Part shown: positions 1 through 30,800 of the stretch, piece after piece
Position numbering within the stretch: the stretch's first letter is position 1
Layout: every line of letters starts with the position of its first letter
Assembly: GCA_949128115.1 (NCBI GenBank)
Contig: OX421966.1
Span: 2,666,001-2,730,000 of the forward strand
Source of the DNA: Anaspis maculata
Lineage: Eukaryota; Arthropoda; Insecta; Coleoptera; Scraptiidae
DNA: 64,000 nt
Direction of reading: 5' to 3'
Position numbers and translations under genes: made by a program
The notes under the pieces: generated by a model
Databases searched by the model: none
What the model was told of the DNA's origin: nothing
What the model saw: the letters and a program-made list of their open reading frames with translations, nothing else

Positions 1-884
1 TATATTTGATGGTAGAGGTCGCCCCCATTAGTTGGACAGCAAAACAGCGGCTCGGCTACCGATTGAAGAAATAAATAATTCATTTTCTGATCGCAATAAA
101 TGACACTTTCGTAAGTTAAAATTCATCGATCAGATCAAATTTTTATTTATGATGAAATCTGAAGTACTCAAAACACGATGCAAGCGGTAAAAGAATACTA
201 ACATAACAGTTAAAAGCGAGCCTCACAACACATTCCCTTCCTCCATTCCCTGGGCGCCACTGGTCGCCCAGTAAAACGTTACACCGAGCGTTACACCAAA
301 GCGTTACACATCATCCTCGCATCAACCGAATTCACTCTCATCCACAGAGTCCCTCATCTGTGATCATGTTGTGATCTAAGCGAGCGATAAGAAGTTTTAC
401 TTCAAAATGTTGTTCATTGTTTTCGGTTTTTCTTTACAGTTTACACAAAAGGCGCTTATCCTCAAAAATATAAAGAACGTGGCGAAGGGATATGTGGCGG
501 AGGTAAGGCGGTGGTTTGGAGACCTGTGGGGCCGGGTGGACGCCATAGAGGAAAATGCGCAGCTCGGCGAGCAGGTCCAGCTCGACCTCAACCTCGACCT
601 CTACCCACCGCCAAACATCATTTCCCATCTTGAAAAGGTATGTACGAGGGTATGTATTACGATCCGTTGTATTACGGTATGCACTTGGTTATCAAAATTC
701 AGCTTTGTGCTTGGCTCTTGGCTTTGTGGGAATAATTTCCGGGTTTGGCCGTATTTAGACCTAAAATGACTGGGCTATACCTGAAAGTGCCTGGAAGTGC
801 AGGAAGGTGCATTATTGCTAGGGAGCGGATTTATATGCGGTAAAAAAGCTCAAAATATTCAGTTTTTAGGCGACCAACACACAA
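1..884 (+). repeat. Head of the 6-7.5 kb duplicated unit, copy 1
   Basis: The stretch from the window start matches 16147 onward, 22414 onward and 29983 onward almost base for base up to the splice acceptor before the exon at 440. Against the 22414 copy I count about nine substitutions and one small indel over roughly 437 bases. After the exon, 660-884 matches 30585-30800 with about four differences. The match stops near 884, where unrelated DNA begins. The rest of this unit probably runs on to 16146, because the unit tail is found at 14870-16146. Coordinates of the left edge are cut by the window. Confidence 0.9.
440..637 (+). CDS. Phase-0 exon, 'RRWF/LWGRV' module, copy 1
   Basis: I do not recognise the protein family. 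The acceptor is a textbook pyrimidine tract ending TTTCTTTACAG at 439 and the donor is AAG|GTATGT at 638. The exon is 198 bases, 66 codons, open in frame, phase 0 at both ends. It encodes an amphipathic, helix-like stretch with the core RRWFGDLWGRVDAI (about residues 23-36), then a Gln/Leu/Asp-rich part and a PPP motif near the end. It is clearly richer in GC than its flanks. Homologous exons lie in the same flanks at 16582, 22849 and 30418. An ATG at 407 would add 11 hydrophobic residues (MLFIVFGFSLQ), but those bases form the acceptor tract and are shared by every copy, so I read them as intron. Exon borders are inferred without transcript data. Confidence 0.65.
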
Positions 885-1068
885 AAGCTTTCTTTACATC
901 CTATTTGACGTCCCAAAAGTGTCTTTTTTTTGGACGCTTATGTCAATATTTCCCTTTTCGTCCGCTAAACCTCATTTGTTTTACTTTATTGGGAAGCTGA
1001 TGTCACTCTGCTTTTTTCACGTTACATGATTTTAGACCGATTTAGCTGTTGAATATTTACATCACGAA
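885..1068. other. No gene seen; short AT-rich spacer
   Basis: No splice-bounded open frame or recognisable transposon protein was found between the end of the duplicated unit and the hAT-like element. The last eight bases (ATCACGAA, 1061-1068) are the left target-site duplication of that element. Confidence 0.6.
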
Positions 1069-2148
1069 CAGTGATCTGAGTCGGGTATTTACCGGGTAGG
1101 TAGGTAAATATAAATCGGGTATTTACCCGGTATTTTCCCGAGCGATATTTACCCACCCTATTCAGTTTGACAGAAAAGTTGACACTGTTGACAGCTCGGT
1201 TGACAGTGTTGACGGTTATAGGTTAAATGATCTCTTTCTCCAAGTTCCAAGGCTTTATGAACATAACCTCCAAAGCACTTATTATTATTTTGCTGCTGTG
1301 GGCAAAAATCATTATTGTTTGTTGTTGTTATTCTCCAATTGTTCGTCACAATTATTGAAAATAGATACCCTATTAGACACCCGATTTTGGGTGAATACCC
1401 GGTATTTACCCTTAAATACAGGGTGATTCACAACTTGTGACTTCCCTTTCACGGGTGAGCTGAGGATGTGCCAGAAAAACTATTTCTGAGGGAAAAAAGT
1501 TGAAAAAAAATCCTGAAATATCGACTTATTTGAACTCAACATCGAAGAAAATTTTGGGGATCGCCGATGCAATGCCTCACGTGGATAATTCTAATCTGGT
1601 ACTATGGAAACAACATGCTCAATAATGGTTGATCGATAATAAGGTATTATTGTTAAGAATGACGTTAGTTGATCATTATTAATACCTATTCAACTAAAAT
1701 TTACAAGTAGCGGGTACAAATACAGTTGGATAGGTAACCCGAGTGGATAATTGCGACCATCAACCAAACATAAGGGTCCTTACCTTATGTAATGGACAAA
1801 GAGACGAGGAAAGGGAGTAAGTCGAGGCATCATCAGTTGAGGTTGACACTGACAAATGATTTATTTTTACCTCCGATTATTGCTAAAGGAGGAGTGTTTA
1901 CATAGAAACATTTTCGCTTATCGTTAAACTATTGTTGAATCGTATGTCTCATCAACAGATAAAAAAAAAACCATTAGTCCCACATATGTTTGGCAAATTT
2001 TCATTATTTTTTTCCTCGTAAACCATATAGCTTTTTGAAATATTTTCAAGCACATGAAGTCAAGTTTTTGGGGCCCCATAACCCCTTGAAAGGAAAGTCA
2101 TAAGTTGTGAATCACCCTGTATAAAAACCCGGGTATTTTACATCACTG
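1069..2148. mobile_element. Non-autonomous hAT-like element with 8-bp target duplication
   Basis: The element begins CAGTGATC and ends CATCACTG, and it is flanked on both sides by the same eight bases, ATCACGAA (1061-1068 and 2149-2156). An eight-base duplication and CAGTG-type ends are characteristic of hAT transposons. Internal blocks near both ends carry short inverted and direct copies of GGGTATTTACCC. No transposase frame is visible, so it would need enzyme from elsewhere. A second element is nested inside it at 1429-2119. Confidence 0.75.
1429..2119. mobile_element. Nested inverted-repeat element with TA duplication
   Basis: It starts CAGGGTGATTCACAAC and ends GTTGTGAATCACCCTG, so the terminal inverted repeats match for at least 16 bases. 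The flanks are TA on each side (1427-1428 and 2120-2121), the target duplication of Tc1/mariner-type elements. It has no coding frame. It lies wholly within the hAT-like element, so it is the younger of the two insertions. Confidence 0.65.
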
Positions 2149-2873
2149 ATCACGAAGTATACCTGATTATTAAAGAGCAATTAATCATTCAATAATGACT
2201 CAAAATCAGATGTGATAATTACATAAATTTGAAAATACAGTTATTTTCTCCGTAAGGTTGGTGCCCATTGCGGCGATTTCCGAGGTGATTTCAGTCGCAA
2301 TATTGCTACGCTACTACATCATTGGTCAATGCTACAATGTCAATGTGAGTGCTGTCACTGCTGTCAAAGTCAAAGGCAATTTCATTATTTTATTTTGTTT
2401 TGTTTGTTATGGTTATGCTTATGTCGTGAAAATTGGCCTAAGTAGGTCTGGAACAAGCGTGTCTGTTGGATTTCGATGGATACCGTAGCCCTCATCATCG
2501 AATAAATAGACCACAACGTTGATGACTTGCACGATTGTGATTTTACCGAAAGGTAGGCCAGAGAAAAACCTTTTAGTGGGTTTTCTTATGTTCATTTTTT
2601 GAGGCCCGTGTGCAAGTTGAGACTAGAGTATAGTGGTTGGTGCCAAATTGTTCCTAGATCATGCTGAACTAGGATCGCGATGGCGAACATCTGAGACCCG
2701 CGACCGGGCAGCGGGAGTGGGGGTAAAATGTGATGAAGACATAAAAAATGTTAATCATGAACCGAAAAAGGTTCAGTGATGAAAGTTACCGTACGTATTC
2801 GCCATTTTACGTCAAGGTTTAGCAAACCGATTTCAAAAATATCAATCGTTTCCAGAGATATTTTCAAAAATAA
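2149..2873. other. No gene seen; unclassified AT-rich DNA
   Basis: Apart from the right target duplication of the hAT-like element at 2149-2156, nothing here is recognisable. A 76-codon open frame at 2258-2488 has low complexity and no family resemblance, and it is not bounded by good splice sites. Confidence 0.5.
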
Positions 2874-4440
2874 TTTTTTTTGTCAACATTTTATTGTTAA
2901 AAAAATCGAAGAATTTTAAAGATGGAAAGATGAAACTCTAGATTTTGACTATTAGGGATGTTAGAAATATAGTCGTGATTGGCGAAAATTCCTCGGCCTA
3001 CTATTTCAGGAAACAAGACCGTCAACTGTTTTCACCAGCTTGGCCGCCATCTTGGATTTCCTTTTGGTGCAGTAGTCGCAAAAACGACAGGGGACTGTGG
3101 GTATGACAGCATTAGATCATTTCAATATGAAAAGTAACTCCCCTGAGGGCGTAAGTTACTTCTTTGTCGAAAAAAATTGCCATTTTATCATCTCCGGCTT
3201 CTGCCAAATCCAGTGCCATGGCTGATGGCTGATTTGGATATGGAAGCGGCAAAATACGTTTCGTACCATAAAACTTGATAGTTTGTGGAGTCAACCACCA
3301 AAATTTATCATCATGAATCAAATGGTTTATTGTTGGTGATTGGTTGAAGCAAAGTGTGCTAATTTTTGGCGGAAAATGCATGAAAACTGAGTTTTTAGTG
3401 GACATTACAAAGCTCTGGAGGGAGAGCTGCGGCCAAGATTGGTGGCGAAAGTCATGTAACTAGTTGAAGTGAGTATGCTCTACAACAAGTAGCTATATTG
3501 AATGGTGTAGGTCGCTTGAAGACCTCTAGGGAAGTCGACAAAGATGTTTTTCATGATAATATTCTCAAGTACAGTCCCCCCCAAAAGTCTGTGAGTTTGT
3601 GAAAAATCACCACCACACATCTTTCAGCTCCGTAAATTGCGGTGATTTCAAATAAATCGAACAAATGAATTGTTCGAGTGTTGCAAATGTTTTGTGGTCG
3701 AAAGAGTTGGTTTCTAGAGAAGAGAGAAACTTTTGGAAGGGACTGTACTTGAAAATTGTAACATGAAAAAACATCTTTGGCGACCTCCCTAGAGATCTTC
3801 AAGAAACCTACACCATTCATGACAGCTACTTGTTATAGAGCATACTCACTTCAACTAGTTACATGACTTTCGCCACCAATCTTGGCCGCAGATCTGCCTC
3901 CAGAGCTTTGTAATGTCCACTAAAACACAGTTTTTATGAATTTTCTGCCAAAAATGAGCACACTTTGCTTCAACCAATCACCAACAATTAACCATTTGAT
4001 TATTGATCATTAATTTTGGTAGTTGACTTCACAAACTATCAAGTTCTATGCTACAAAACGTATTGTGCCACTTCCAGCTTCAAAACAGGCATCATTGGCA
4101 CTGGATTCGGCAGAAGCCGAAGATAACAAAATGACAATTTTTTTCGACAAAGAAGTAATTTTTTCTCTCTGGGAAGTTACTTTTCGTATTGAAATGATCT
4201 AACGCTACCTTACTCATAGTCCCCTGTCGTTTTTGCGACTACTGCACCAAAAGAAAATCCAAGATGGCGGCCAAGTTGGTGAAAACAGTTGACGGTTTTG
4301 TTTCCCAAAATAGTAGGCCGAGGAATTTTCGCCAATCACAACTATATCTCTAACATCACCAATTGTCAAAATCTAGGGTTTCATTTTTCCATCTTCAGAA
4401 TTCTTCGATTTTTTTAACAATAAAATGTTGACAAAAAAAA
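2874..4440. mobile_element. Long hairpin (foldback) element, about 1.57 kb
   Basis: The two halves are inverted copies of each other. The left arm starts with a T-run and GTCAACATTTTATTG at 2874, and the right arm ends with the complement at 4440. The arms remain alignable for roughly 600-700 bases each, including the block around GTCGTTTTTGCGACTACTGC (4226-4245) and its inverse at 3070-3090. The centre is near 3650. Open frames at 3112-3405 and 3551-3820 lie inside the arms and look fortuitous. No transposase and no clear target duplication were found, so the class is uncertain; a foldback or long-TIR non-autonomous DNA transposon fits best. Confidence 0.75.
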
Positions 4441-4675
4441 TGGCTACGAAATGGAAGCCTTTGACCCTGTGGGCTACCTACTCCATGTTGCGGTCCACTC
4501 TTGTTTTGAAAGAGCAAATACCCAATACCCAAAAGTGCAGGCGTTTCCTAAAAAAGAAAACGTTGGCTATAAGCCGGTAAAATCAAAAGTTTTCACAGCG
4601 GAGAATACTGAAAAGTTCATCACGGAAGCGGCACGTAGGTACCGTTGCGGACTTTTTAAAGTAGACGACAGTTGA
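4441..4675 (+). pseudogene. Tyrosine-recombinase-like fragment (Crypton type), broken
   Basis: Two short stretches in different frames resemble the N-terminal part of the phage-integrase-like, Crypton-related genes common in insects. One frame reads ATYSMLRSTLVLKE near 4477-4520; another reads VGYKPVKSKVFTAEN then EKFITEA (about 4563-4630). In that family a 'W..YSML.ST' helix is followed by 'GY.PKKSK.' and 'F..EAP'. The order and spacing fit, but a frameshift separates them and the frame stops at 4675. It directly abuts the right end of the hairpin element at 4440. I judge it a decayed mobile-element gene from motif memory, not from a search. Confidence 0.45.
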
Positions 4676-5171
4676 CAGATTTCTCAGGATTCTGGCCTGA
4701 ACGTCGCGTGACAGCAAGCCAACTCGTTGACATTGTCGTCCACTTTATTTTGGCCGCAATCGTCACTTCACTTTCAACCCGGGTTGAGAGTGATTGTTCG
4801 TAATGGTTTATTTTCCAAGTTTTTAAAAGTCAGTAATTGATCAATTACTATGGTGGTTGTGAGTAACAGTATATTACATACCGAGGCGGGAAACGAGTCA
4901 TTACTGCGGAGGGCAAAGATTGCTAGCGCCCCGGCAACAATAGCCCGACGCAGTAATAACCATTTTTGCCGAGGTATGTATGCTATTTTACTGACAATTA
5001 TTCAATATCATTATTAGCAATGCATATAAGCCACAATAATTATTATCGTGTTGAGAATCGTCTTTATCAAGTGAGCCGTTCACGACAAATTTAGTGGCTC
5101 TCACTTTGACGTATTGACAGTCTGACATAAAAACAAGTCATAGCCAATTTCTCTTTTGAAAATAACCGATC
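4676..5171. other. No gene seen
   Basis: The stretch contains a short imperfect inverted repeat around TATTACATACCGAGGCGGG (4871-4889) and its near-complement at 4966-4986 (about 115 bases end to end), which may be a small hairpin element. Nothing else is recognisable. Confidence 0.45.
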
Positions 5172-5911
5172 ATGTATGAACCAGACTTAAAAATGTTTGA
5201 TCTCACGCCTCCTGAATCTCAGCAAGCGGCCGAAGAAGCTACGGCAAATCTAATAGCTACCCAAAAACAGTCGTGATCGATACGAGAAAGGATTTCTCTT
5301 TGAGGAAATAGAAGCCCGGCACATGTTGGAGCTACAGGCTACCTATTCCATGCTGAAATGCTTGGTGAAAGTAGTGTCAAAACTGACACCTCGCAATCCC
5401 AGACTTCAAGCATCTCTCAAAATGTGAGTCATCCACTTCACTTCCCTCTCAATAATCACATGATGATGTACCTAAAAAGGCTAATAGAATTTTTTTTTTT
5501 ACAAAATCACGCCAAAACATAACCTGAAACGAAACAAACAGCGATCTGTCAAGTGTCATGTGACTCATGTGGATGCAATTTTTGCACGCAATCACGTCAA
5601 AGACCAGCGATCATAGAAGGCTAGGTTTTTCTGCCCAAGAGACGGAACACATACGTTACCTACTTCTTAGAAGTCTGAAATGAACCAGTTACTATGGTGA
5701 TTGTTAGTAAAGTCATTTAACACCACACCTAATCTTTATTACGAATCAATTAATCATCGCCAATTTAATTAAGTTTAGCCTAATTATTCATCATATAATT
5801 TCCAGGCGTGCTGAAACCAGTTCACGACAGGAATTAGTTGATTCAAGTTTACATCCGATTTCTGAAAGAGAAATACACCATAATCACGTGCGAAATCCTA
5901 CTACTAAATAA
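5172..5911 (+). pseudogene. Second tyrosine-recombinase-like fragment, two exons
   Basis: An ATG at 5172 opens a frame reading MYEPDLKMFDLTPPE, rich in Ala/Glu, and after about 32 codons the reading continues one frame over as SRDRYEKGF and LQATYSMLK, again the N-terminal signature of Crypton-type recombinase genes. A strong donor, AAAAT|GTGAGT, falls at 5423/5424. An acceptor, ATTTCCAG, ends at 5805. Joining 5423 to 5806 keeps the frame and gives a further 34 codons ending in TAA at 5909-5911. The frame join at the splice supports a once-spliced gene, and the single frameshift near 5260-5270 suggests it is now broken or a sequencing error is present. The C-terminal catalytic part is missing. 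It carries the same YSML motif as the fragment at 4441-4675. Confidence 0.5.
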
Positions 5912-7372
5912 TTCAACCCTTCCAATTTAATTCCGTCTCGCATTCTTCCTAGTTTTCAGAACTATTGGTGAACCCATTTCCTAAAGCACTTGAGTTTAAT
6001 TCCCGGCATAATTAATTAAGACCTTGTCGATTTCGTTCCAACCCTCTCTACCTTCTAGACCATTTTATTTGTACGAAAAGAAATCTCGATTATTGAGTTG
6101 TAGAGAGATGGTTGTTTATTAAGTATTGTCTTGGTATTTCGAAGTTATAGCCATTATTTTGATTATTGATCAAATTATTTACATAAAAATTGAATGTTGA
6201 AATTCCATAAATTTGTATCCAGCTGGTGCTGTAGTTTGAAACTCACAGACTTATCGAACAGCTCTATTTCACGCTGGGTTGAATAACTCCACTCAGATCT
6301 GCAATCAGGTGTACAATTTATCGCGGTGAGCCTCTAATTAAGCAGCCTACAAAAATGATGTTATGTTCCTTTCTGTCTTGAAGCGTTTTCGAAGCGACAC
6401 TGATTTTTCTGGGCATTGTAGAAAAGAGGTTCTCTCTTCAGTATGGAACGCTAGCTTTTTAATGTTCATAAACTCCTTGCCGTGCGAAAAGGGTTGAATC
6501 TTTCATTCTATGAGAGCATGGGGAAAGATTACGCGTGAGAGATCGTCGCCCAGATTTGATTCAAATATATGTCAAGAGCGCTGGATTTTCAGCAAAACTG
6601 ACCTAAGAATCAACCTGACGAAGACAAGATCTTTCTAAAGGGTTACTGTAGCTTTCGCCATTTTCTGGCATCTTGAAGGTAGGTAGCTAAAAACAAGGGG
6701 CCGTGTTTAAAAGCTCACAGCAAGTTCAAGGCATTGAATCAATTTGACGCTTACTATGGCTGTTCGTGTTCGAGATATCAAGAACAAGACCTACTATCAT
6801 TTTAGAAACAAAAAAATTTCTTCAACCCTATTAAACAATTATAATTTGCTTGCAATGGAAATCAGACTTGCCTTGACATCTTCTCTTCTCGTAACTGATG
6901 CACTATAACTATTAACAGTGTCTTTAGCACTCTGATTGACTTATTCTGGATGAGTTATAACTTTTCTTCTCCCACATCTGGCGTTGTTGACTGCTACGAC
7001 GCTAATCCTCTTCCCTCATCGCCGTGTTTCTCGGACCGAGTCTTTCTTGCGCCATCTCCTCTGCTAAAATGTCCCCTGACCACTAAGCTTATATGTCGGG
7101 GTGCGGCGCGAGCCCAGAATTCTTCCTTGCCCCACTTATTTCCTTCCCAATAATATTTCCCCTAATGCTAATTTATTCCTAAATCTTTAATTTCCTTTTA
7201 TCTTATAATTTTAAGCTGTCCCATTACAGTACCTAGCTAATTGATATGCTTCTCTTATCGTATGCAGTGATCAAATGGATTTGTTATGGTAGAGTAGGTA
7301 CAACAGATAAGCATATACAATATTTCAATTCTGCATGAATTGAAAGTTTGGAAATTTTCTTCCGTTTTCCAG
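5912..7372. other. No gene seen; AT-rich DNA
   Basis: There is no splice-bounded coding frame and no transposon protein. The open frame at 6950-7153 is Ser/Pro-rich but lacks exon signals. The stretch ends with a good acceptor-like tract, CTTCCGTTTTCCAG, at 7372. Confidence 0.5.
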
Positions 7373-9544: not shown

Positions 9545-10003
9545 CCTCACCTTGGCTGACCAAGGATTCAACCAATCAAGTCCAGTTGACATGTTGATTG
9601 GTGCTTCCATCTTCCGGAAGCTTCTTTGCGTTGGTCAAATCACACTACTGCCAGATACGCCGATGGTTTTGCAGAAAACCATGCTAGGCTGGATCCTGAC
9701 TGGTCCTCTACCAAACACGCAATCAGCTAGCTCATTCTGCCACTTGAATACCAACGTCGAGATTCACAACCGAATTGAACAATTCTGGAAAATTGAAGAG
9801 TGCTCATCATCCCAGTAAATGTCGCGTGAAGAAAGCGAATGTGAACAGCATTTCGTAACCACCACAATTCGGGATGAATCCGGTCGATACGTTGTCGACA
9901 TGCCTACGAAGGAAAACCTAACTGAGTTGGGTGACCCATTTCAAGTGGCCTCAAAGAGATTTTTTCTCTAGAAAACAAACTAAAAAGAAATCATGTTGTT
10001 TTC
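9545..10003 (+). pseudogene. BEL/Pao retrotransposon fragment (protease end to start of RT)
   Basis: The frame at 9552-9818 shows the BEL/Pao signature 'VDMLIGASIFRKLLCVGQI', then LQKTMLGWILTGPL, the region at the end of the aspartic protease and linker before reverse transcriptase. The reading then shifts frame and continues with ECEQHFVTTTIRDESGRYVV and ASKRFFSLENKLKRN, which corresponds to the next conserved block of these elements ('..RF.SLE.KL..N'). It lacks the protease active site upstream and the RT catalytic box downstream, so it is a dead fragment. Its 3' part, from about 9949, is the very DNA that is repeated as intron in the six-unit micro-exon array that follows. Confidence 0.8.
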
Positions 10004-10025
10004 AACATCATTTTATTATTTTCAG

Positions 10026-10121
10026 ATTCGAAACCCTTCACCGGCGGCGACGCCGACGTCGAGGGACGCCAGCCCGGAGCCTCATGAACCCGTCCGGACG
10101 CCACCACCACCACCACCAAAA
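10026..10121 (+). CDS. Pro-rich micro-exon 1 (type A)
   Basis: The acceptor TTATTATTTTCAG ends at 10025 and the donor AAA|GTAATT starts at 10122. The exon is 96 bases, 32 codons, phase 0 at both ends. It begins IRNPSPAATPTSRDASPEP and finishes VRTPPPPPPK. The repeated SP/TP dipeptides and the polyproline end suggest a flexible linker or an SH3/WW-type ligand, but that is inference. It is the first of six related exons. Confidence 0.65.
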
Positions 10122-10238
10122 GTAATTATCTGACCAAATAGGCCAGTAGCCTCAAAGTGGCCTCAAAGAGATTTTTCTCTCTAGAAAACAAACTAAAAAG
10201 AAATCATGTTGTTTTCAACATCATTTTATTATTTTCAG

Positions 10239-10334
10239 ATTCGAAACCCTTCACCGGTGGCGACGCCGACGTCGAGGGACGCCAGCCCGGAGCCTCATGA
10301 ACCCGTCCGGACGCCACCACCACCACCATCAAAA
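10239..10334 (+). CDS. Pro-rich micro-exon 2 (type A)
   Basis: The exon is 96 bases, phase 0 on both sides, bounded by ATTTTCAG at 10238 and GTAATT at 10335. It differs from micro-exon 1 by an Ala-to-Val change near residue 7 and a Pro-to-Ser change just before the final Lys (PPPPPSK). Confidence 0.65.
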
Positions 10335-10451
10335 GTAATTATTTGACCAAATAGGCCAGTAGCCTCAAAGTGGCCTCAAAGAGATTTTTCTCTCTAGAAA
10401 ACAAACCAAAAAGGAATCATGTTGTTTTCAACATCATTTAATTATTTTCAG

Positions 10452-10568
10452 CTTTATGGCTCTCCAACGGCGATTCCCGGCGCCACGCCGAGGGAGTTTG
10501 ATTTCGCCGACCCTCCTCCAGCGGGCGAGCCCACCCAGCAGCCCGTCCGGATTCCACCACCACCAAAA
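10452..10568 (+). CDS. Pro-rich micro-exon 3 (type B)
   Basis: The exon is 117 bases, 39 codons, phase 0 on both sides, between ATTATTTTCAG (ends 10451) and GTAATT (10569). It begins LYGSPTAIPGATPREFDFAD and ends VRIPPPPK. The FDFADPPPAGEP part is absent from type A exons, while the PVR-x-PPPPK ending is shared, so types A and B are diverged homologues. Confidence 0.65.
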
Positions 10569-10685
10569 GTAATTATCTGACCAAATAGGCCAGTAGCCTC
10601 AAAGTGGCCTCAAAGAGATTTTTCTCTCTAGAAAACAAACTAAAAAGGAATCATGTTGTTTTCAACATCATTTTATTATTTTCAG

Positions 10686-10775
10686 ATTCATACCGCTTCA
10701 CCGGCGGCCTCGCCGACGAGGGACGCCAGCCCGGACCCTGGTGAGCCCGTCCGGACGCCACCACCACCACCAAAA
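10686..10775 (+). CDS. Pro-rich micro-exon 4 (type A, short)
   Basis: The exon is 90 bases, 30 codons, phase 0 on both sides. It begins IHTASPAASPTRDASPDPGE and ends VRTPPPPPK. Relative to micro-exon 1 it has an in-frame loss of two codons and several replacements, whereas the introns on both sides are almost unchanged. Confidence 0.65.
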
Positions 10776-10892
10776 GTAATTATCTGACCAAATAGGCCAG
10801 TAGCCTCAAAGTGGCCTCAAAGAGATTTTTCTCTCTAGAAAACAAACTAAAAAGGAATCATGTTGTTTTCAACATCATTTAATTATTTTCAG

Positions 10893-11009
10893 CTTTATGG
10901 CTCTCCAACGGCGATTCCTGGCGCCACGCCGAGGAAGTTTGATTTCGCCGACCCTCCTCCAGCGGGCGAGCCCACCCAGCAGGCCGTCCGGATTCCACCA
11001 CCACCAAAA
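10893..11009 (+). CDS. Pro-rich micro-exon 5 (type B)
   Basis: The exon is 117 bases, phase 0 on both sides. It matches micro-exon 3 except for a Glu-to-Lys change (ATPRKFDF) and a Pro-to-Ala change before VRIPPPPK. The near identity of exons 3 and 5, separated by a type A exon, implies that a two-exon block was duplicated. Confidence 0.65.
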
Positions 11010-11127
11010 GTAATTATCTGACCAAATAGGCCAGTAACCTCAAAGTGGCCTCAAAGAGATTTTTCTCTCTAGAAAACAAACTAAAAAGGAATCATGTTGT
11101 TTTTAAACATCATTTTATTATTTTCAG

Positions 11128-11241
11128 ATTTATACCTCTCCACCGGCGGCCTCGCCTCGCCGCGCCTCGCCGACGAGATTCGCCGACCCTGACCCTGAGC
11201 CCATCCAGACCCAGCCCGTCCGGATGCCACCACCACCAAAA
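11128..11241 (+). CDS. Pro-rich micro-exon 6 (A/B mixture)
   Basis: The exon is 114 bases, 38 codons, phase 0 on both sides, from ATTTTCAG (ends 11127) to GTAATT (11242). The N-terminal part, IYTSPPAASP, resembles type A; the middle, RFADPDPEPIQTQPVR, resembles type B; the end is PPPPK. It may be a recombinant or the ancestral form. After its donor the array stops and the sequence becomes unrelated near 11265. Confidence 0.6.
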
Positions 11242-12030: not shown

Positions 12031-12031
12031 C

Positions 12032-14869: not shown

Positions 14870-16146
14870 TAGTGAACGCAAGATGTTTATTAGGGTTCTA
14901 CCATTATTTGGGCGGAAATTTCAATATGGCGGCCAACATAGTGGCAGAATCATGGAATTTGGCTTGAAAATCAGAATGATCGTGACAAGGGAAAGTTCCA
15001 AGCTCCATAAAAATCGTTCTACTAATAAGAAATTTCAATATGGCGGCCAAGATGACGGCAGAGCATCATTTGTCCAAAATCTGATGTATTTTGATGAAAT
15101 TCACATCGCCTGCAAATTTCACTCAAATCGGACCACTTTCAGAGAAATTTAAAATGGCGGATCAAAGATGGCAGACAAGTGACAGAAATCATTGGTCAAC
15201 TTTAAATGGTGCACACGTACGCATTTGATTGGCGTTCGCACCCCATCGATATCTTTTTTCATTGCGGCATGATTCTCCCCTCTAGTTCTATAACTTTGAA
15301 ACATGTTCAAAATGGATGGAGAATACAAGATGGCGGCGGGGCATCAGTTGTCGAAAATTGGATGGATCTTGATGTGGTTTACATTGCCTGCAAATTTCAT
15401 TCTAATCGGATCACTTTCAGAGCAATTCAAAATGGCGGATCAGATGGCTGCAAAGTAACAAAAAACCAAAAGTCAACTTGACGTCCTGGACATTATTTAC
15501 TATTGAGCTCAAACTCAACCTCAACTCAAACAATTTATTGGCCATCATAAAGTTGCTTTACAACAAACATGGCATGTCTTGCATGTATAACATATTATTG
15601 ACATCACATAACGATCAGCGTTTACATCACATCGATATCTTTTTCCTGAGGGAGTTGATATCCCGGGTACAGACAGACAGACGGGCGGACGGACGGGAAA
15701 AGTGGAGCTAAAAGCGCCGTTTTCCCATTTTTTGAGAAAGTGCGCTAAAAACCATTTTCAAAACTTAACTTTGATAGCCTCTATCTCCGTTATAAAGCGT
15801 TTCCGATATAATTTTTTTCAATTCCACCGTTTGTATATTTATTGCTCCAAAGTTTTTTCGAGGTTTTTTTTAGAGCTTTCACATTGATTTAGTAAAATAA
15901 TTCACCTACAATCAGTTCTCGATTCGTCTCGTACGATTTTTTTCAACAAATCAAACTATCCATTGCGATTCAGTTCGACTTACAGTAATCGATTCACTGA
16001 CAACATTTGGACATCCCTAGTTTAGGTACACAGAAAAGTTGAGAATGATAATAAATTGGTTTCTATTTTGATTGAGGCTACTGGCTAACATGCCGGCACA
16101 TGTCGGCACCGCCGGCAGCAAATACCCGAAAAAATGAAAGTTTGCA
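14870..16146 (+). repeat. Tail of the 6-7.5 kb unit, copy 1
   Basis: The segment matches 20995-22413 and 28560-29982. It contains repeated words such as ATTTCAATATGGCGGCCAA and AAATGGCGGATCA in units of roughly 130 bases, then TATCCCGGGTACAGACAGAC and ends with CATGCCGGCACATGTCGGCAC before the next unit begins. Open frames rich in 'FQYGGQ' arise from these repeats and are not convincing genes. Confidence 0.85.
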
Positions 16147-16581
16147 TATTCGATGGTAGAGGTCGCCCCCATTAGTTAGACAGCAAAACAGCGGCTCGGC
16201 TACCGATTGAAGAAATAAATAATTCATTTTCTGATCGCAATAAATGACACTTTCGTAAGTTAAAATTCATCGATCAGATCAAATTTTTATTTATGATGAA
16301 ATCTGAAGTACTCAAAACACGATGCAAGCGGTAAAAGAATACTAACATAACAGTTAAAAGCGAGCCTCACAACACATTCCCTCCTTCGATTCCCTGGGCG
16401 CCACTGATCACCCAGTAAAACGTTACACCGAGCGTTACACCAAAGCGTTACACATCATCCTCGCATCAACCGAATTCACTCTCATCCACAGAGTCCCTCA
16501 TCTGTGATTGTTGTGATCTAAGCGAGCGATAAGAAGTTTTACTTCAAAATGTTGTTCATTGTTTTCGGTTTTTCTTTACAG

Positions 16582-16743
16582 TTGATACAAAACGGCAAAG
16601 CTGATGTCCAGCAGGACATTATTGAGGTGGCGGAGGCATGGCTGGCCCGGTGGTGGGTCGATGATCTGCGGGGGCGGGTGTACGCCATCCGCAGAGGCCG
16701 CCCAACAAGCGACGCATACGCCCGCCGGTTGCGGCGCATCCTT
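16582..16743 (+). CDS. Exon of the 'RRWF/LWGRV' module, copy 2, strongly diverged
   Basis: The acceptor tract (TTTCTTTACAG, ends 16581) is identical to copy 1. A phase-0 donor candidate, CTT|GTGAAT, follows 16743 and gives 54 codons. The core reads RWWVDDLRGRVYAI, clearly homologous to RRWFAELWGRVDAM of copy 3 but with most other residues replaced and a more basic C-terminal part (DAYARRLRRIL). The usual PPP-containing end and GTATGT/GTACCA donor are absent; a Tc1-like scrap follows instead. It may be a functional variant or an inactivated copy. Family unknown. Confidence 0.45.
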
Positions 16744-16830
16744 GTGAATAATAAAATCAGCTCAATGATGTGGCTAAACTTACTGCCCGATATCAATCCA
16801 ATTGAGCTCGAATGAATACTGGATAAAAGA
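16744..16830 (+). pseudogene. Possible Tc1/mariner transposase scrap
   Basis: Reading on from the exon frame gives MMWLNLLPDINPIELE before a TGA. The DxNPIE motif resembles the second catalytic aspartate region of Tc1/mariner transposases (usually SPDLNPIE). The match is short, so it is tentative. A Tc1-like C-terminus lies 0.75 kb downstream at 17574-17753, which makes a broken element plausible. Confidence 0.35.
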
Positions 16831-16931
16831 GACTTAATCGCCAGCCTGATCTAAAACTACCACTACCAAGGCACTACTCGGCACGAAGCAGAAACCTGAA
16901 TCGAAAAGCCCAAAGTTTCCTTCTGGGTGGC

Positions 16932-17135
16932 ATGGCGGAAGTTGCCCAGTTCTATTCAAGCTTAGCAACGAAAGAGATGGAGAAATCACAGGAGCACAAC
17001 AATTACGCAGCAAACGCGTTTATCAAGGATAATGCTGAACGTCTGCAAAGGGACGACGCTGGTGGACTTACACAGCCTTCACGTCCAAAAAGCGACGACA
17101 TATATCGACAGTTTGGTGGACTACCACCTTGCTGA
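16932..17135 (+). CDS. Coding-like piece of unknown family, unit copy 2
   Basis: The frame reads MAEVAQFYSSLATKEMEKSQ, then a hydrophilic Asn/Ala/Asp-rich part, and ends YRQFGGLPPC before TGA at 17133. In the paralogue at 23119 a one-base difference (CTTGTGATGG against CTTGCTGATGG) removes this stop, so copy 2 is frame-shifted relative to copy 3 or the reverse. The frame is open upstream of the ATG to about 16855. Further on, in another frame, a strong donor ACC|GTAAGT lies at 17258. I do not recognise the family and cannot assign an acceptor. Confidence 0.35.
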   Translation: MAEVAQFYSSLATKEMEKSQEHNNYAANAFIKDNAERLQRDDAGGLTQPSRPKSDDIYRQFGGLPPC

Positions 17136-20890: not shown

Positions 20891-22848
20891 CTTGTAGGTA
20901 TGCATCAATTTACTTTGTGTACCAAATTTGGTCACAATCCAGTGGTTAAATATGGAGTTATAACAAAACAAGCGAATAATAATATGTCTCATGGGCATGA
21001 GGTTCAATAATGCACCTTCTTTTAGAAGGATTAGTGAACGCAAGATGTTTATTGGGGTTCTACCATTATTTGGGCAAAAATTTCAATATGGCGGCCAACA
21101 TAGTGGCAGAGTCATGAAATTTGGCTTGAAAATCAGAATGATCGTACTAGACAAGGGAAAGTTCCAAGTTTTATGAAAACCGTTTCACAAAGAAGAGATT
21201 TCGATATGGCGGCCAAGATGGCGGCGGAATGTTGAAATTTAACTTAAAATAAGACTGATCATATAAAACAACGGTAAGTTCCAAGCTCCATAAAAATCGT
21301 TCAACTAATAAAAAATTTCAATATGGCGGCCAAGATGGCGGCAGAGCATCATTTGTCCAAAATCTGATGTATTTTGATAAAATTCACATCGCCAGCGAAT
21401 TTCACTCAAATCGGACCACTTTCAGAGAAATTCAAAATGCCGGATCAAAGATGGCGGACAACTGACAAAAATCATTGGTCAACTTCATATGGTGAACACG
21501 TACGCATTCGATTGGCGTTTGCACCACATCGATATCTCTTTTCGTTGAGGCATAATTCTCCTAGTTCTATTACTTCGAAACATGTTTAATATGGAGAATA
21601 CAAGAAGGCGGCGGGGCATCAATTGTCAAAAATTGGATAGATCTTGATGTGGTTTACATTGCCTGCAAATTTCATTCTGATCGGATCACTTTTAGAGCAG
21701 TTCAAAATGGCGGATCAGATGGCTGCAAAGTAACAAAAAACCAAAAGTCAACTTGACGTCCTGGACATTATTTACTATTGAGCTCAAACTCAACCTCAAC
21801 TCAAACAATTTATTGGCCATCATAAAGTTGCTTTACAACAAACATGGCATGTCTTGCATGTATAACATATTGACATCACATAACGATCAGCGTTTACATC
21901 ACATTGATATCTTTTTCCTGAGGGAGTTGATATCCCGGGTACAGACATACAGACGGACGGATGGGAAAAGTGGAGCTAAAAGCGCCGTTCTCCCATTTTT
22001 TGAGAAAGTGCGCTAAAAACCATTTTCAAAACTTGACTTTGAAAGCCTCTATCTCCGTTATAAAGCGTTCCGATATAATTTTTTTCAATTCCACCGTTTG
22101 TATCTTTTTTGCTCGAAAGTTTTTTTCGAGTTTTTTTTAGAGCTTTCACATTGATTTAGTAGAATAATTCACCTACAATCAGTTCTCGATTCGTCTCTTA
22201 CGATTTTTTTCATCAAATCAAACTATCCATTGCGATTCAGTTCGACTTACAGTAATCGATTCACTGACAACATTTGGACACCCCTAGTTTAGGTGCACAG
22301 AAGAGTTGAGAATGATGATAAATGAGTTTTTATTTTGATTGAGGCTACTGGCTAACATGCCGGCACATGTCGGCACCGCCGGCAGCAAATACCCGTAAAA
22401 ATGAAAGTTTGTATATTTGATGGTAGAGGTCGCCCCCATTAGTTAGACAGCAAAACAGCGGCTTGGCTACCGATTGAAGAAATAAATAATTCATTTTCTG
22501 ATCGCAATAAATGACACTTTCGTAAGTTAAAAATCATCGATCAGATCAAATTTTTATTTATGATGAAATCTGAAGTACTCAAAACACGATGCAAGCGGTA
22601 AAAGAATACTAACATAACAGTTAAAAGCGAGCCTCACAACACATTCCCTCCTTCGATTCCCTGGGCGCCACTGATCACCCAGTAAAACGTTACACCGAGC
22701 GTTACACCAAAGCGTTACACATCATCCTCGCATCAACCGAATTCACTCTCATCCACAGAGTCCCTCATCTGTGATTGTTGTGATCTAAGCGAGCGATAAG
22801 AAGTTTTACTTCAAAATGTTGTTCATTGATTTCGGTTTTTCTTTACAG

Positions 22849-23043
22849 TTTACACAAAAGGCCATTATGGTGAATGGATTAAAGGACCTGGCGGAGGGGT
22901 ACGTGAGACAGGTACGACGGTGGTTCGCGGAACTGTGGGGCCGGGTTGACGCCATGGTGGAGGAGAGGGGGCAGCCCGGCCAGCAGCTCCGATCCGACCT
23001 CGACGTCCACCCACCGCCGGACATAGGTGCCCAACTCATCAAG
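22849..23043 (+). CDS. Phase-0 exon, 'RRWF/LWGRV' module, copy 3
   Basis: The acceptor TTTCTTTACAG ends at 22848. The exon is 195 bases, 65 codons, phase 0, ending ATCAAG at 23043 before GTACCA, a weak but allowed donor. It reads LKDLAEGYVRQVRRWFAELW, then GRVDAMVEERG, a Gln/Asp-rich part and PPPD near the end. Over the first 36 codons I count 27 nucleotide differences from copy 1 (25%), with 14 codons changing the amino acid and 6 silent, while the 437 bases upstream differ by about 2%. If the donor is not used, the frame runs on through the MAEVAQ piece to 23329. Confidence 0.6.
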
Positions 23044-23329
23044 GTACCACTACCAAGGCACTACTCGGCACGAAGCAGAAACCTGAATCGAAAAGCCCAA
23101 AGTTTCCTTCTGGGTGGCATGGCGGAAGTTGCCCAGTTTTATTCAAGCTTAGCAACGAAAGAGATGGAGAAATCACAGGAGCACAACAATTACGCAGCAA
23201 ACGCGTTCATCAAGGATAATGCTGAACGTCTGCAAAGGGACGACGCTGGTGGACTTACACAGCCTTCACGTCCAAGAAGCGATGACATATATCGACAGTT
23301 TGGTGGACTACCACCTTGTGATGGTGAAG
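23044..23329 (+). CDS. Coding-like piece of unknown family, unit copy 3
   Basis: The frame continues in phase from the exon at 22849 and contains MAEVAQFYSSLATKEMEKSQ (from ATG 23119), NAFIKDNAERL and YRQFGGLPPCDGEA, then enters the insertion at 23330. It is the same piece as 16932-17135 with one lysine-to-arginine change, and here it has no stop before the insertion. Whether it is a separate gene fragment or part of a longer exon cannot be decided from sequence alone. Confidence 0.35.
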
Positions 23330-24651: not shown

Positions 24652-24890
24652 ATTGCATATGTGGGACACCAAAATTCGAAGTGGTTAACCCCTCGGGTGA
24701 AGCCGGTTGTGCGGTTTCGAAAAAATAGAAATCATAACCGGCAGAGAAAACCACTGCGGTGGTGTGTCAAGACTAAGAATAGCGGTGATGGAACATCTGT
24801 GAAGGAGGAATATACCGTAAGTTGTTACTCAAAATGGTGTAGGTATCAATTTATTTGGTTTTGGTCCCAGATTGAATTTATTTTGTTCTA

Positions 24891-25010
24891 TCGTGTGATC
24901 GAATGAATCCTTATTTTAGGTAGGCTGTGGTCTAGCCGAACGCAGCTTCGCACCCCTGAATTTGACCAGGTCACAGCCTACCTAAAATAAGAATTCATTT
25001 GATCACACGA
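24891..25010. mobile_element. 120-bp hairpin MITE, copy in unit 3
   Basis: Same element and same site as 17332-17451, TCGTGTGATC...GATCACACGA with TA flanks. Because both units carry it at the same place, it inserted before the unit was duplicated. Confidence 0.85.
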
Positions 25011-25132
25011 TAGATACCAAGAGTCCAGTTGGAATCCGGGCTCACTATGGGTATTCCTCCCACAGAAAAGATATCGTATTGAGACTGTCTAATGGGGATA
25101 GGTACTGTCCCCATTAGACTAGGGACTTACAG

Positions 25133-25312
25133 CTCTTCAAAGAAGACTGTCAGCCCTACCAGTACAACTCACTACAAGACAAGAACTTATTGGATGCTCT
25201 AACCGCGAAGTGGAGAGAAATCCCTGTGGCAACTATCAATAACCTGTTCAAAGGTATGTTTAGATCCTACCAAAAAGTAGTGCGGTCCAGACCAGGTCCA
25301 ACTTTCTATTGA
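25133..25312 (+). pseudogene. Tc1/mariner transposase C-terminal fragment, unit copy 3
   Basis: The fragment parallels 17574-17753 and keeps the frame LLDALTAKWREIPVATINNL to a TGA at 25310-25312. The last residues differ (TFY instead of TFD). It has no catalytic part. Confidence 0.65.
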
Positions 25313-26864
25313 AATATTTTGCCCCGTTCATTTTCATTGCTCATAATTTAAATATAATAAAAAAAAAAAATTAGTATGAATTAACGTGATAAAGTAACTG
25401 GATAAGAAAAAAAAAACATATTTTCGTAACAGAGCAACGTGGAGCATCAAACTAAAAAAATATGAGTTCCTCATACTGTTGATTACCGCATACAGCAAAT
25501 TTCAAAATTATGGAGTAGCCACAAAAGTTCCTGCATCATTTCAAAAAAGTACAAAATTGCAAGGTATCCTTTACCACCCTGTATTAAGCACATCGCTGCC
25601 ATCGTGAAAAGAAAATTTTTGAAATCGAACCAACGGTTTTCGATTTTTCCACTCTCGAAAAACTGCAAATTTTCAACTTTTCATCCCGTGAACAGATTTT
25701 CAATTTGTCTTTTTAACAAGAGGTGACTGGTTCTTGCACATCTTCTGACAATTTCTTTTCTCAATTCTCCAGTCGAAAATTTAGAACCAGCTTATTGCCG
25801 AGGGCTGACTCAAATGATGGAGCTCACAAGGAAGCCCATAATTGACAATTTTCACAATGAAATTGGAGAAGGCTTTGAGTTTTTCCGAGACATTTTTTTG
25901 ACATAATGTTTAGTTCCCTGCTTTTGCTTAAATCTATCTATTTCTCAAACTCCGAGTGCCCACCCGAAGGAACGACTGAAAAAACAAATCCGTAGGTTTC
26001 TGGATACCAGTCGGGAAACTTTTGTGTCGTCCACAACAGATTTTTATTCATGTTGTGGTACACCTGACCGACGTTTCTGAGCCAAAAGCTCATTTTCATG
26101 TCTTCACACTACAAGACGCATGCTCACAAAATTGTATTACAATCGATCTAGGAACTTCGGAGAAAAAACAACACCATTTTTACCTATTTTCCGAAGAAAT
26201 TTATTTTTATTTTCCATTCAAGTTGCACGCCTGATTTCAATCGGAGCTGCACATGTTTTATCGAGTCTTTCGCGGGTACTTTTGCTAAAAACCAAACTAG
26301 GTTGGAGTCTATTCGGTACTTCTCGAGCTATTTAACCTCAAAGTTTTTAATTTGACAGCTTATAACTTGGACACTCGAAGATTTAAAATACCGTAGGCTA
26401 AGGTCATCGTAGAGTCTGAATAAATGGAATGAAATGACAGATGACAGATATATGATAACGGTTGCATATTTTGGATAGTTTTCCAAGAGCTTCAAAATGA
26501 CCTGTCAAAAATCAAAATCGTTACGTCAACATTTTTTGTCACTCTTTGACATTGACATTTCTTGTTGAAAGGTGACACGTTGAAAATCACATTTTCTCTT
26601 CTCTACCATAAACCATAATACGTGCATACCAAATTTGGTCGAACTCAGTCAAACGGTTTAGAAAAAAATCGAAGGGTCAAAAAAAACAAGTGACATACAT
26701 ACACATTAGATATTTAGTCTGGGGGCATAGGGTCAAGAAAGGCTTGGCCGTGTCCAACTTCGTAAAGATATATAGAGATATGTCCTTATCGATTCCTGGG
26801 TGATCAAGGATCATGAAAAATTATGGTGGAATATTGACATCTGCTGCAGGCAAATATGCTGGAG

Positions 26865-28450
26865 GCGCCGAAATGGGCTTCATCTGGTAGTAAGAAAGTG
26901 GCTGTAGCTCGTTTGTTTTCCAACAGATTTCAACATCTGGAACGCCATTTTGTGAACAAAAAAATTATCATCTCATTTAATTCTTGCTTTTACAAACGTC
27001 ATTTCGGGGAACTGTCGAAATTGTCTTTATGAGATATGCTAATTTCCGGCCTTTTTTAAAGGTTCTTTGATATTTTTGAAACTTGGCCAGTATTTATAGA
27101 TCTTGAGGTGCCCTTCCCAAATTTCTACATTCTCATTTCGTATATTTGCCGTTTTTGGCCGCCATATTGGAAAGATGGCGCTCAAAAAACAGTTTTTTGA
27201 CAATATCTTTAATTTAGTCAATGTGAAGTGGAAGCGTTTGTATGCGAATGGAAGCTTATTCAATTCTCTACAATTTGACACCTTACTCATGTACGTGCTA
27301 CTTCCGGTTCTTGGGTTATGGCTTCAAGAACTCCCTGAAGCATCAACTTTTGTCATCCAATCAGCATGGCAAGTTGATCTTAGCTCCACGTGGCAGTCAA
27401 ATTGACCATAAATAATGATAAGTTGTCAACCAGAGAGCAATAATATCCAGAAAATCAATCATGGTAACGGTTGTTATGCAACTACAGGGTGAACTCTAAA
27501 AGAAAATTGACTTTGAAAAGGTAGAGCTTGAGAACCGTAAATCGCACATGAGTGATTTCAGGTGTCAAATTTTGGAGAATTTAATAGACCTTCACTTTTG
27601 ATATGAATCTTGAGATAACGAATTTTTCAAAATTTTTCAAAAAATGCTTTCTTGGGCGCCATTTTTTCAAAATTATGGCCAGAACAGCAGAGAAACGAAG
27701 TGGAAAGTGGATGTTCTGAATGATTACCCCAAATTTCATAATACATAATAATCAGTTTCGAATGCATCTGGATATCCGTCAAATGCTATATTACCTTTAT
27801 TTCTTTCAAAAGTCAGTTTGCTTTCACAGTTCACTCTGTAATTACGCAATTAACATCACCATGATCGATTTTCTAAATTTTTATTATCTATGGTTAATGG
27901 TCAAGAGCTATTTATGGTTAATTTGCTTACTACATGACGGTGGTATCAATTTAACATGCTGATTGAATGTCGAGGTTGATGCTTCGGGAAGTTCTGAAAG
28001 CACTAACTCAAGAACCGTAAATCACACATAAATGACTGGTATGTCAGGTTGTGAAAATTTGTATGGGCTTTCCTCCGCATATACACGTTCCAATCTTGAG
28101 TCAGTTGAATTCAAGATATTGACAAAAAACTGTTTTTTGGGCGCCATCTTTCCAATATGGCGGCCAAAACGGAAGAGATACGAAGTGGAAAAGTAGAAAT
28201 TCAGAAAAGGCACCTCAAGATCTATGATAATGCCAGGTTTCAAAAATATCGGATAACCTTAAAAAACCGGCGGAATTTAGCATAGGTATCTTATGAAAAC
28301 AATTTTGACAGTTTCACGAAATAACGTTTGTGAATTTAGGTACGAAATAAGAGAAGAAATTTTTTGTCTACACAATGACGTTCCAGATGTCGAAATCCGT
28401 TGAAAAACAAACGAGCCACAGCCAGTTTCTTATTACCAGATGAAGCCTAT
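26865..28450. mobile_element. Long hairpin element, unit copy 3
   Basis: This copy of 19300-20890 has the same inverted arms (CCGCCATATTGGAAAGATGG at 27159-27178 against CCATCTTTCCAATATGGCGG at 28145-28164). Small indels, such as an extra TTTTTCAAAA near 27628 and AGGT near 28285, separate the two copies. Confidence 0.75.
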
Positions 28451-29982
28451 TTTGGCTTGTAGGTATGCATCAACTTACTTTGTGTACCAAATTTGGTCAC
28501 AATCCAGTGGTTAAATATGGAGTTATAACAAAACAAGCAAATAATAATATGTCTCATGGGCATGAGGTTCAATAGTGCACCTTCTTTTTGGAGGATTAGT
28601 GAACGCAAGATGTTTATTAGGGTTCTACCATTATTTGGGCAGATATTTCAATATGGCGGCCAAATAGTGGCAGAATCATGAAATTTGGCTTGAAAATCAG
28701 AATGATCGTAGGTACAAGACAAGGGAAAGTTCCAAGTTTTATGAAAACCGTTCCACAAAGAAGATATTTCGATATGGCGGCCAAGATGGCGGCGGAATGT
28801 TGAAATTTAACTGAAAATAAGACTGATCATACAAAACAACGGTAAGTTCCAAGCTCCATAAAAATCGTTCAACTAATAAGAAATTTCAATATGGCGGCCA
28901 AGATGGCGGCAGAGCATCATCCGTCCAAAATCTGATGTATTTTGATAAAATCCACATCGCCTGCGAATTTCACTCAAATCGGACAACTTTCAGAGAAATC
29001 TAAAATGCCGGATCAAAGATGGCGGACAACTGACAAAAATCATTGGTCAACTTCATATGGTGAACACGTACGCATTCGATTGGCGTTTGCACCACATCGA
29101 TATCTCTTTTCGTTGAGGCATAATTCTCCTAGTTCTATTACTTCGAAACATGTTTAATATGGAGAATACAAGATGGCGGCGGGGCATCAATTGTCAAAAA
29201 TTGGATGGATCTTGATGTGGTTTACATTGCCTGCAAATTTCATTCTAATCGGATCACTTTCAGAGCAATTCAAAATGGCGGATCAGATGGCTGCAAAGTA
29301 ACAAAAAACCAAAAGTCAACTTGACGTCCTGGACATTATTCACTATTGATCTCAAACTCAAACTCAACTGAAACAATTTATTGGCCATCATAAAGTTGCT
29401 TTACAACAAACATGGCATGTCTTGCATGTATAACATATTGACATCACATAACGATCAGCGTTTACATCACATCGATATCTTTTTCCTGAGGGAGTTGATA
29501 TCCCGGGTACAGACAGACAGACGGACGGGCGGACGGGCGGGAGAAGTGGAGCTAAAAGCGCCGTTCTCCCATTTTTTGAGAAAGTGCGCTAAAAACCATT
29601 TTCAAAACTTAACTTTGGAAGCCTCTATCTCCGTTATAAAGCGTTTCCGATATTTTTTTTTTCAATTCCACCGTTTGTATCTGTTTTGCTCGAAAGTTTT
29701 CTTCGAGGTTTTTTTTAGAGCTTTCACATTGATTTAGTAGAATTATTCACCTACAATCAGTTCTCGATTCGTCTCGTACAATTTTTTTCATCAAATCAAA
29801 CTATCCATTGCGATTCAGTTCGACTTACAGTAATCGATTCACTGACAACATTTGGACATCCCTAGTTTAGGTACACAGAAGAGATGAGAATGATAATAAA
29901 TGGGTTTCTATTTTGATTGAGGCTACTGGCTAACATGCCGGCACATGTCGGCAGCAAATACCCGAAAAAATGAAAGTTTGCA

Positions 29983-30800
29983 TATTTGATGGTAGAGGTC
30001 GCCCCCATTAGTTAAACAGCAAAACAGCGGCTCGGCTACCGATTGAAGAAATAAATAAATCATTTTCTGATCGCAATAAATGACACTTTCGTAAGTGAAA
30101 ATTCATCGATCAGATCAAATTTTTATTTATGATGAAATCTGAAGTACTCAAAACACGATGCAAGCGGTAAAAGAATACTAACATAACAGTTACAAGCGAG
30201 CCTCACAACACATTCCCTTCTTCCATTCCCTGGGCGCCACTGGTCACCCAGTGAAACGTTACACCGAGCGTTACACCAAAGCGTTACACATCATCCTCGC
30301 ATCAACCGAATTCACTCTCATCCAGAGAGTCCCTCATCTGTAATTGTTGTGATCTAAGCGAGCGATAAGAAATTTTACTTCAAAATGTTGTTCATTGTTT
30401 TCGGTTTTTCTTTACAGTTGAAACAAAAGGCCATTATGATAGCTACCATCAAGGGAGTGGCGGAGGGGTATATCACCGAGATCCGGCGGTGGTTCCGAGA
30501 CCTATGGGGCCGGGCGGAGGCCATGGAGGAGGGGGAGGAGCTCGGCCAGCAGGTCCAACTCGACCTCGACCTCCACCAATCCGTGGTATTACGGTATGCA
30601 CTTGGTTATCGAAATTCAGCTTTGTGCTTGGCTCTTGGCTTTGTGGGAATAATTTCCGGGTTTGGCCGTATTTAGACCTAAAATGACTGGGCTATACCTG
30701 AAAGTGCCTGGAAGTGCGGGAAGGTGCATTATTGCTAGGGAGCGGATTTATATGCGGTAAAAAAGTCTAAATATTCAGTTTTTAGGCGACCAACACACAA
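29983..30800 (+). repeat. Head of the 6-7.5 kb unit, copy 4
   Basis: The segment starts TATTTGATGGTAGAGGTCGC and is nearly identical to 3-439 up to the acceptor at 30417, then diverges in the exon, then matches 660-884 again. After AACACACAAAAG (about 30802) it leaves the copy 1 sequence and enters new exon-like DNA, showing that unit copies continue into different downstream modules. Confidence 0.9.
30418..30585 (+). CDS. Exon of the 'RRWF/LWGRV' module, copy 4, 3' end rebuilt
   Basis: The acceptor TTTCTTTACAG ends at 30417. The frame reads LKQKAIMIATIKGVAEGY, then EIRRWFRDLWGRAEAMEEGE, and a Gln/Asp/Leu-rich part. Compared with copy 1, the PPP-containing end and the GTATGT donor are deleted and the exon is fused to sequence that is intronic in copy 1 (660 onward). 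A replacement phase-0 donor, GTG|GTATTA, at 30586 would give 56 codons; GTATGC at 30594 is another option but not phase 0. About 29% of bases in the first 36 codons differ from copy 1, against about 2% in both flanks. Confidence 0.55.

Follow-up and report, generated by a model that had tools for sequence, protein, structure and literature searches.

How an exon can come to differ strongly among copies of a unit whose introns remain nearly unchanged is the question raised by a 64,000-nucleotide stretch of the Anaspis maculata genome (the window; bases 2,666,001-2,730,000 of contig C6, OX421966.1, 78.2 Mb in length, in an assembly of 757.8 Mb and 50 contigs). An earlier note, made from the window sequence alone, had described four copies of one exon with a common acceptor tract and common upstream DNA, and had attributed the pattern to an exon outpacing its introns under diversifying selection, with gene conversion or exon shuffling as alternatives. 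The copies, here named U1–U4, were confirmed at their positions, as were the differences between them: U1 and U3 differ at 9/438 bases before the acceptor and at 27/108 exon bases, with 14 amino-acid-changing and 6 silent codons, and U1 and U4 differ at 31/108 exon bases, 12/438 bases upstream and 5/227 bases downstream. The explanation favored here is that at least four old exon types have probably been re-assorted over young, homogenized flanks by interlocus gene conversion. The data indicate that the exon is old and is not evolving faster, with the flank recording a recent history and the exon an older one.

DNA and protein searches of the whole genome revealed eight units, all on contig C6 and, as assembled, in two groups at 2.67-2.85 Mb and 4.40-4.43 Mb. 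Further units beyond the window, which the earlier note had envisaged, were therefore found, namely U5, U6, U7, and U8. The first exon bases are located at 2,666,440 (U1), 2,682,582 (U2), 2,688,849 (U3), and 2,696,418 (U4) on the plus strand of C6 and at 2,850,491 (U8), 4,400,467 (U6), 4,403,405 (U5), and 4,428,838 (U7) on the minus strand, with U2–U4 in tandem in a single orientation at spacings of 6.3 and 7.6 kb. A search of the whole genome with the U1 exon peptide gave seven scored candidates, all of them family units; U2 is too divergent for this peptide search and was recovered by the DNA searches.

The exons begin in phase 0 behind a pyrimidine-rich CAG acceptor and comprise types A (U1 and U5), B (U3 and U7), C (U6 and U8), D (U4), and a decayed type E (U2). 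Five of the eight units (U1, U5, U6, U7, and U8) are intact and carry the donor AAG|GTATGT. Within the window, where all unit features given here by window position are on the plus strand, the sole intact exon with this donor is that of U1 (type A, 440..637, 66 codons, phase 0-0). The type B exon of U3 (22849..23043, 65 codons) has its donor altered to AAG|GTACCA, and its frame continues into a second coding-like piece. The type D exon of U4 (30418..30573) retains 52 alignable codons, its last codons and donor having been deleted, and the type E remnant of U2 (16582..16698) is alignable only over its first ∼117 bases and has no matching donor. Of the exon extents proposed earlier, the ends given for U2 and U4 are not real exon ends. 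Past its alignable part, U2 (window 16699-16810) reads ...LPDINPIELE, which may resemble a Tc1/mariner transposase motif.

The transition from conserved to divergent sequence coincides with the splice sites. In 15-bp bins across the five intact units, between-type divergence is 0 in the last three intron bins (45 bases) and 0-0.03 farther upstream, jumps to 0.21 in the bin that opens the exon, ranges over 0.08-0.44 inside it and is 0.29 in its last bin, and returns to 0 in the first bin at the donor, with 0-0.10 thereafter; the uneven divergence claimed from the window alone is thus borne out by a step at both ends of the exon. Pair sums were taken over seven units (all but U2), with windows trimmed against overlap of neighboring units. 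Different-type pairs (n = 18) differ at 740/3240 exon bases (22.8%) compared with 1338/39715 flank bases (3.4%; 1.2-8.1% in individual pairs), where the flank figures count only stretches alignable at ≥80% and are lower bounds. In U1-U7, whose flanks are more alike than those of any other pair, the exon differs at 50/192 bases and the alignable flank at 75/6307 (Fisher p = 1.7e-45; here and below, pairs share sequences and the pairwise p values are not independent).

The excess extends to silent sites. Between types, silent divergence per site (dS) is 0.17-0.55 and replacement divergence (dN) 0.17-0.31 in the same 18 pairs, and silent differences exceed flank differences in U1-U7 (∼12/43 versus 75/6307, p = 2e-13), U7-U8 (∼8/43 versus 56/2575, p = 6e-6), and U5-U8 (∼12/43 versus 79/2115, p = 8e-8). 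Differences at codon positions 1, 2, and 3 stand at 272:181:287. Diversifying selection alone, acting on recent duplicates with rapid amino acid replacement in the exon and neutral introns, would agree with the high dN, with the seven replacements and no silent change between U1 and U5, with pairwise dN/dS values of 1.23-1.49 in three of the 18 between-type pairs and 1.03 in U6-U8, and with a core invariant in the seven aligned sequences (RRW...L.GR, the part that holds of the conserved RRWFxxLWGRVxAM proposed earlier). A fast exon driven by amino acid selection nevertheless fails, because the silent sites are also raised far above the flanks; in addition, same-type pairs are without an exon excess and a one-ratio model gave a dN/dS (omega) of 0.75, not above 1. 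Selection of this kind, the cause advanced in the earlier note, is therefore not upheld and appears unlikely as the sole explanation.

The selection tests themselves, low-powered with 66 codons, gave a log likelihood (lnL) of −743.21 for the one-ratio model compared with −743.87 at an omega of 1 (2 delta lnL = 1.3), a difference that is not significant. A two-ratio model returned 1.16 for the six same-type tips and 0.64 for the other branches, and did not fit significantly better; pairwise dN/dS is above 1 in two of the three same-type pairs as well as in the three between-type pairs mentioned. A contribution of positive selection is possible, and selection may plausibly preserve the distinct exon types.

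Pairs of the same type behave differently. Across the three such pairs the exon differs at 25/585 bases and the flank at 299/6893, both 4.3% (per-pair p values of 0.56-0.83), and comparison with the nearest flank only (62/1727, 3.6%) gave p = 0.45. These pairs bear directly on hypermutation limited to the exon, for example through error-prone copying of the transcribed exon. Such a process would raise silent and replacement sites at all codon positions and in the exon only, as observed, but divergence of ∼4% in both exon and flank means no raised rate in the same-type pairs, and the substitutions are distributed among all six base-pair classes, with A-G the largest at 0.33. Hypermutation is consequently regarded as very improbable.

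A third line of evidence is a repeat insertion, 32 bases upstream of the acceptor, that is common to all eight units. In U1, the end piece of this dispersed repeat forms the upstream flank (2..407, ending ...GAAGTTTTACTTCAAAA) and is followed by the non-repeat end of the intron, with its polypyrimidine tract and CAG acceptor (408..439). The equivalent flanks and acceptor tracts are found at 16146..16549 and 16550..16581 in U2, 22412..22816 and 22817..22848 in U3, and 29982..30385 and 30386..30417 in U4. The upstream DNA is shared as had been claimed, but window 2-407 also occurs elsewhere, the repeat being dispersed genome-wide (the best 40 of 700 first-look candidates were scored). The junction ...CAAAA|TGTTGTTC is kept in 8/8 units and was seen in 0/24 other repeat copies examined. 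Relative to a consensus of those 24 copies, the unit copies diverge by 1.5-3.5% (1.5-2.2% where >290 bases are aligned, as in seven of them), and mean repeat divergence is 2.7% among them compared with 5.0% among other copies. An exon ancestor bearing the insertion would be too young to have accumulated, at an ordinary rate, a dS of 0.17-0.55, and the exon types are thus older than the insertion; consequently, either the insertion-bearing flank spread between types or the exons were written in later. It is on the silent-site excess, the parity of same-type pairs, and the shared young insertion that the exon is read as old.

The immediate surroundings of the exon were seen only in members of the family. 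The 408..439 tract is identical in six of the eight units, with one substitution in U3 and a one-base T deletion in U5. Downstream, the intron segment at 638..840 was likewise seen in family units only: it is covered by six of 40 scored repeat-search matches, all of them units, and the other 34 start at query 202-225 (window 841-864). A second dispersed repeat of ∼205 bp (863..1068; best 40 of 1115 first-look candidates scored) lies farther along the downstream intron and is common to the units, and the downstream flank of U4 (30579..30803) is homologous to approximately window 662-887. Homogenization through the genome-wide repeats alone was considered and rejected, as similarity extends to the 32 bases ahead of the exon and to ∼200 bases behind it, which were seen in this family only. 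Extra DNA of ∼3.7 kb is located within the upstream repeat of U1 and U7, where in U1 it starts ∼3.7 kb upstream of the window and stops 34 bases short of it; the repeat is unbroken there in U2–U4.

Exon and flank yield conflicting genealogies. U1 pairs with U7 by flank, as above, but with U5 by exon (7/198; flank 75/2305). The flank segment at 1973..3345 has 6/1370 differences from the U7 unit (99.1% identity), the U7 exon differing by 26%, and identity to the U5 unit is 95.2% at window 2157-3723. Variants restricted to U1 and U7 occur at window 34 and 801, each site being present in six of the eight units, which confines the tract exchanged in U1 or U7 to window 34-801, at less than ∼770 bp. 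Groupings that cut across types are also seen in the first six exon bases (TTTACA in U1 and U3, TTGATA in U2 and U5), pointing to recombination at the exon edge. This conflict between U1-U7 and U1-U5 supports the gene conversion or exon shuffling that the earlier note had listed as alternatives. The units would have been copied recently, their flanks evened out by interlocus gene conversion, or both, and the exon types re-assorted between near-identical flanks through short exchanges, for which gene conversion is the mechanism we infer. The types may have escaped homogenization through selection for distinct proteins or through suppression of conversion by exon heterology, and the exon would be spliced into a working mRNA.

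Exact replacement of the exon provides another route to the same arrangement, in which the spliced RNA or complementary DNA (cDNA) of an expressed relative serves as template and older exons are written into young units. The edges match both splice sites, and U1 and U7 combine near-identical flanks on both sides with unlike exons, in line with this route. On the other hand, the genome search yielded no donor whose introns differ (the seven scored candidates all being units), ordinary DNA conversion between alike flanks would give the same picture for recent swaps, and the first six exon bases group separately from the remainder. RNA- or cDNA-templated replacement is thus thought improbable. 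An extended form, a cassette system in which a limited set of old exon alleles would be repeatedly written exon-exactly into interchangeable young units, possibly via spliced RNA or cDNA, seems a similarly long shot; if true, the storage and redistribution of protein variety would be uncoupled from the gene around it. In a single genome, both evening of flanks and movement of exons fit the observations. The genome search, which found no outside donors, leans toward flanks evened around fixed exons, and the exon-exact edges lean slightly toward an exon-bounded process.

Several observations support coding potential. Of the six frames, only frame +0 is open in all seven tested copies (all but U2), and in neutral simulations on the fitted tree all seven remained open in 154/5000 runs, with a mean of 3.8 copies containing a stop. 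Length differences between exon types are whole codons, and GC content at third codon positions (GC3) is 0.68-0.77 compared with a flank GC of ∼0.4. That the exon is coding is thereby moderately supported. Of the joint outcome named in advance as fatal to the earlier proposal, dN/dS near 1 with stops in most further copies, an omega indistinguishable from 1 was obtained, and frame +0 is free of stops in the seven tested copies. The predicted structure of the type B exon (three window rows) has a mean predicted local distance difference test score (pLDDT) of 81 and a predicted template modeling score (pTM) of 0.64, with a putative long helix at residues 2-38 and two short helices. Ahead of the exon, MLFIVFGFSLQ reads in frame in six of the eight units, with one replacement in U3. 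A start codon at 407 followed by this short hydrophobic stretch was considered as the beginning of the protein and set aside: the U5 deletion breaks the frame from ATG to exon, leaving the exon and acceptor intact, and the A of the ATG is at the repeat end. The stretch reads better as acceptor tract than as a signal-peptide coding region.

Searches for homologues and partner exons were negative. The U1 and U2 exon peptides matched no Pfam family, and no homologue of the exon was found among 5.8 billion proteins or among PDB sequences (best E 0.25); 52 pattern matches to viral contigs included none that was confirmed, Rfam at the gathering threshold gave nothing, and neither base composition nor open frames gave a convincing indication of neighboring exons. 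The units could instead resemble the alternative exons of Dscam, belonging to a single gene and used mutually exclusively or as cassettes, an arrangement with which phase 0-0 exons and the single-orientation tandem U2–U4 agree. However, units of opposite orientation up to 1.76 Mb apart require at least two loci, at odds with all alternative exons lying in one gene and one orientation, and published Dscam arrays showed no conversion (PMC3236188). A single alternatively spliced gene is accordingly given little credence.

The proposal of re-assorted old types must also be weighed against observations that count against it. The divergence steps exactly at the splice sites, where irregular boundaries would be a frequent outcome of simple conversion combined with selection, and no insertion-free unit survives for comparison. 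In the same-type pairs, exon and nearest flank differ by 3.5 and 2.5%, 4.6 and 2.3%, and 4.7 and 6.1%, respectively, the exon being higher in two of three. An omega near 1 gives no positive indication that the protein is under selection, the searches recovered neither another exon nor a homologue, and the 3′ end of the exon is damaged in three of the eight units, so the family may be decaying in part or entirely. The last three points are shared by the most serious rival, that the units are decaying gene fragments carried by segmental duplication and without current function, to which the value of 1.16 on recent branches, compatible with neutrality, also conforms. The open frame in all seven copies (neutral runs matching this in 154/5000), the whole-codon length differences, and the GC3 argue in the opposite direction, and decay is considered conceivable but doubtful.

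Old versions swapped among recent flanks is an already known route by which gene families keep variety, and several described systems invite comparison with re-assortment of exon types. According to established theory, duplicates are homogenized by conversion unless selection prevents this, and a peak of divergence remains at the protected site (PMC3924837). The units resemble primate red/green opsin exon 5 in that review in having an exon divergence peak between homogenized introns together with discordant genealogies, and the opsin-type pattern, high divergence confined to the exon and low on either side, is present here; the opsins number only two, and the difference for which they are selected is known, whereas here there are eight units and at least four types. 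In the Hessian fly salivary SSSGP genes (PMC2955719), as in the present family, copies are clustered in tandem and inverted, noncoding sequence is near-identical and coding sequence strongly diverged, and the authors propose concerted homogenization with short conversion tracts plus positive selection. Moderately diverged SSSGP members have dN/dS >1, a conserved signal-peptide region, and demonstrated expression (PMC2955719), in contrast to the omega of 0.75, the silent excess, and the lack of a clear signal peptide or complete gene in this analysis of genomic sequence alone.

Similar introns with radically different exons are also described for snake three-finger toxins (ASSET; PMC2711939), where short within-exon segments are altered; in the present family, the divergence spans the exon from one edge to the other, without loss of alignability. 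Tigriopus GOT1 paralogs likewise retain divergence islands despite conversion, which makes new combinations (PMC3728101); that system consists of one pair of enzyme genes, and the comparison was made between populations. Dscam exon arrays share tandem duplicated, diverged exons with the units, and differ in belonging to one gene with no conversion found (PMC3236188). Pea aphid cassette effector families similarly join a conserved part with divergent coding exons; in those families, the conserved part is the signal-peptide region, the exons are miniature, and the loci are mostly scattered (PMC7495047). The present locus offers a clean case for dissecting the pattern of hypervariable exon and conserved intron, and the silent-site, same-type-pair, and shared-insertion tests could be extended to those families of venom and effector genes in which the pattern has been attributed to rapid selection. 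Should the exon prove to be expressed, the family would constitute a natural test of conversion plus selection keeping a few protein versions distinct.

The coding-like piece that extends the open frame of U3 (23044..23319, plus strand) has a copy with 98% amino acid identity behind U2 at 16857-17132. It bears a weak Pfam resemblance to HemY_N (E 0.024) and DUF1771 (E 0.17), both below the cut-off, and its 73-amino acid core matched no Pfam family. Relatives of the piece are present on contigs C1, C2, and C4, that on C2 lying inside a 578-amino acid open frame that may be the parent gene. Approximately 17 kb from U8, a 301-amino acid open frame (L023:7077-7979, minus strand) has weak leucine-rich-repeat matches (E 0.078, below the cut-off).

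Elsewhere in the window, self-complementary stretches of 1.6-1.9 kb are found at 2873-4441 (86%) and 48778-50600 (83%), the first of which is common to several units. Tandem arrays with periods of 213 and 441 bp occupy 9943-11156, and an array of 9.3 copies of a 203-bp unit, whose units also match one another in the inverted sense, is located at 33073-34987. A unit of ∼820 bp is repeated in tandem approximately four times at 39538-42994, with 91-94% similarity between copies.

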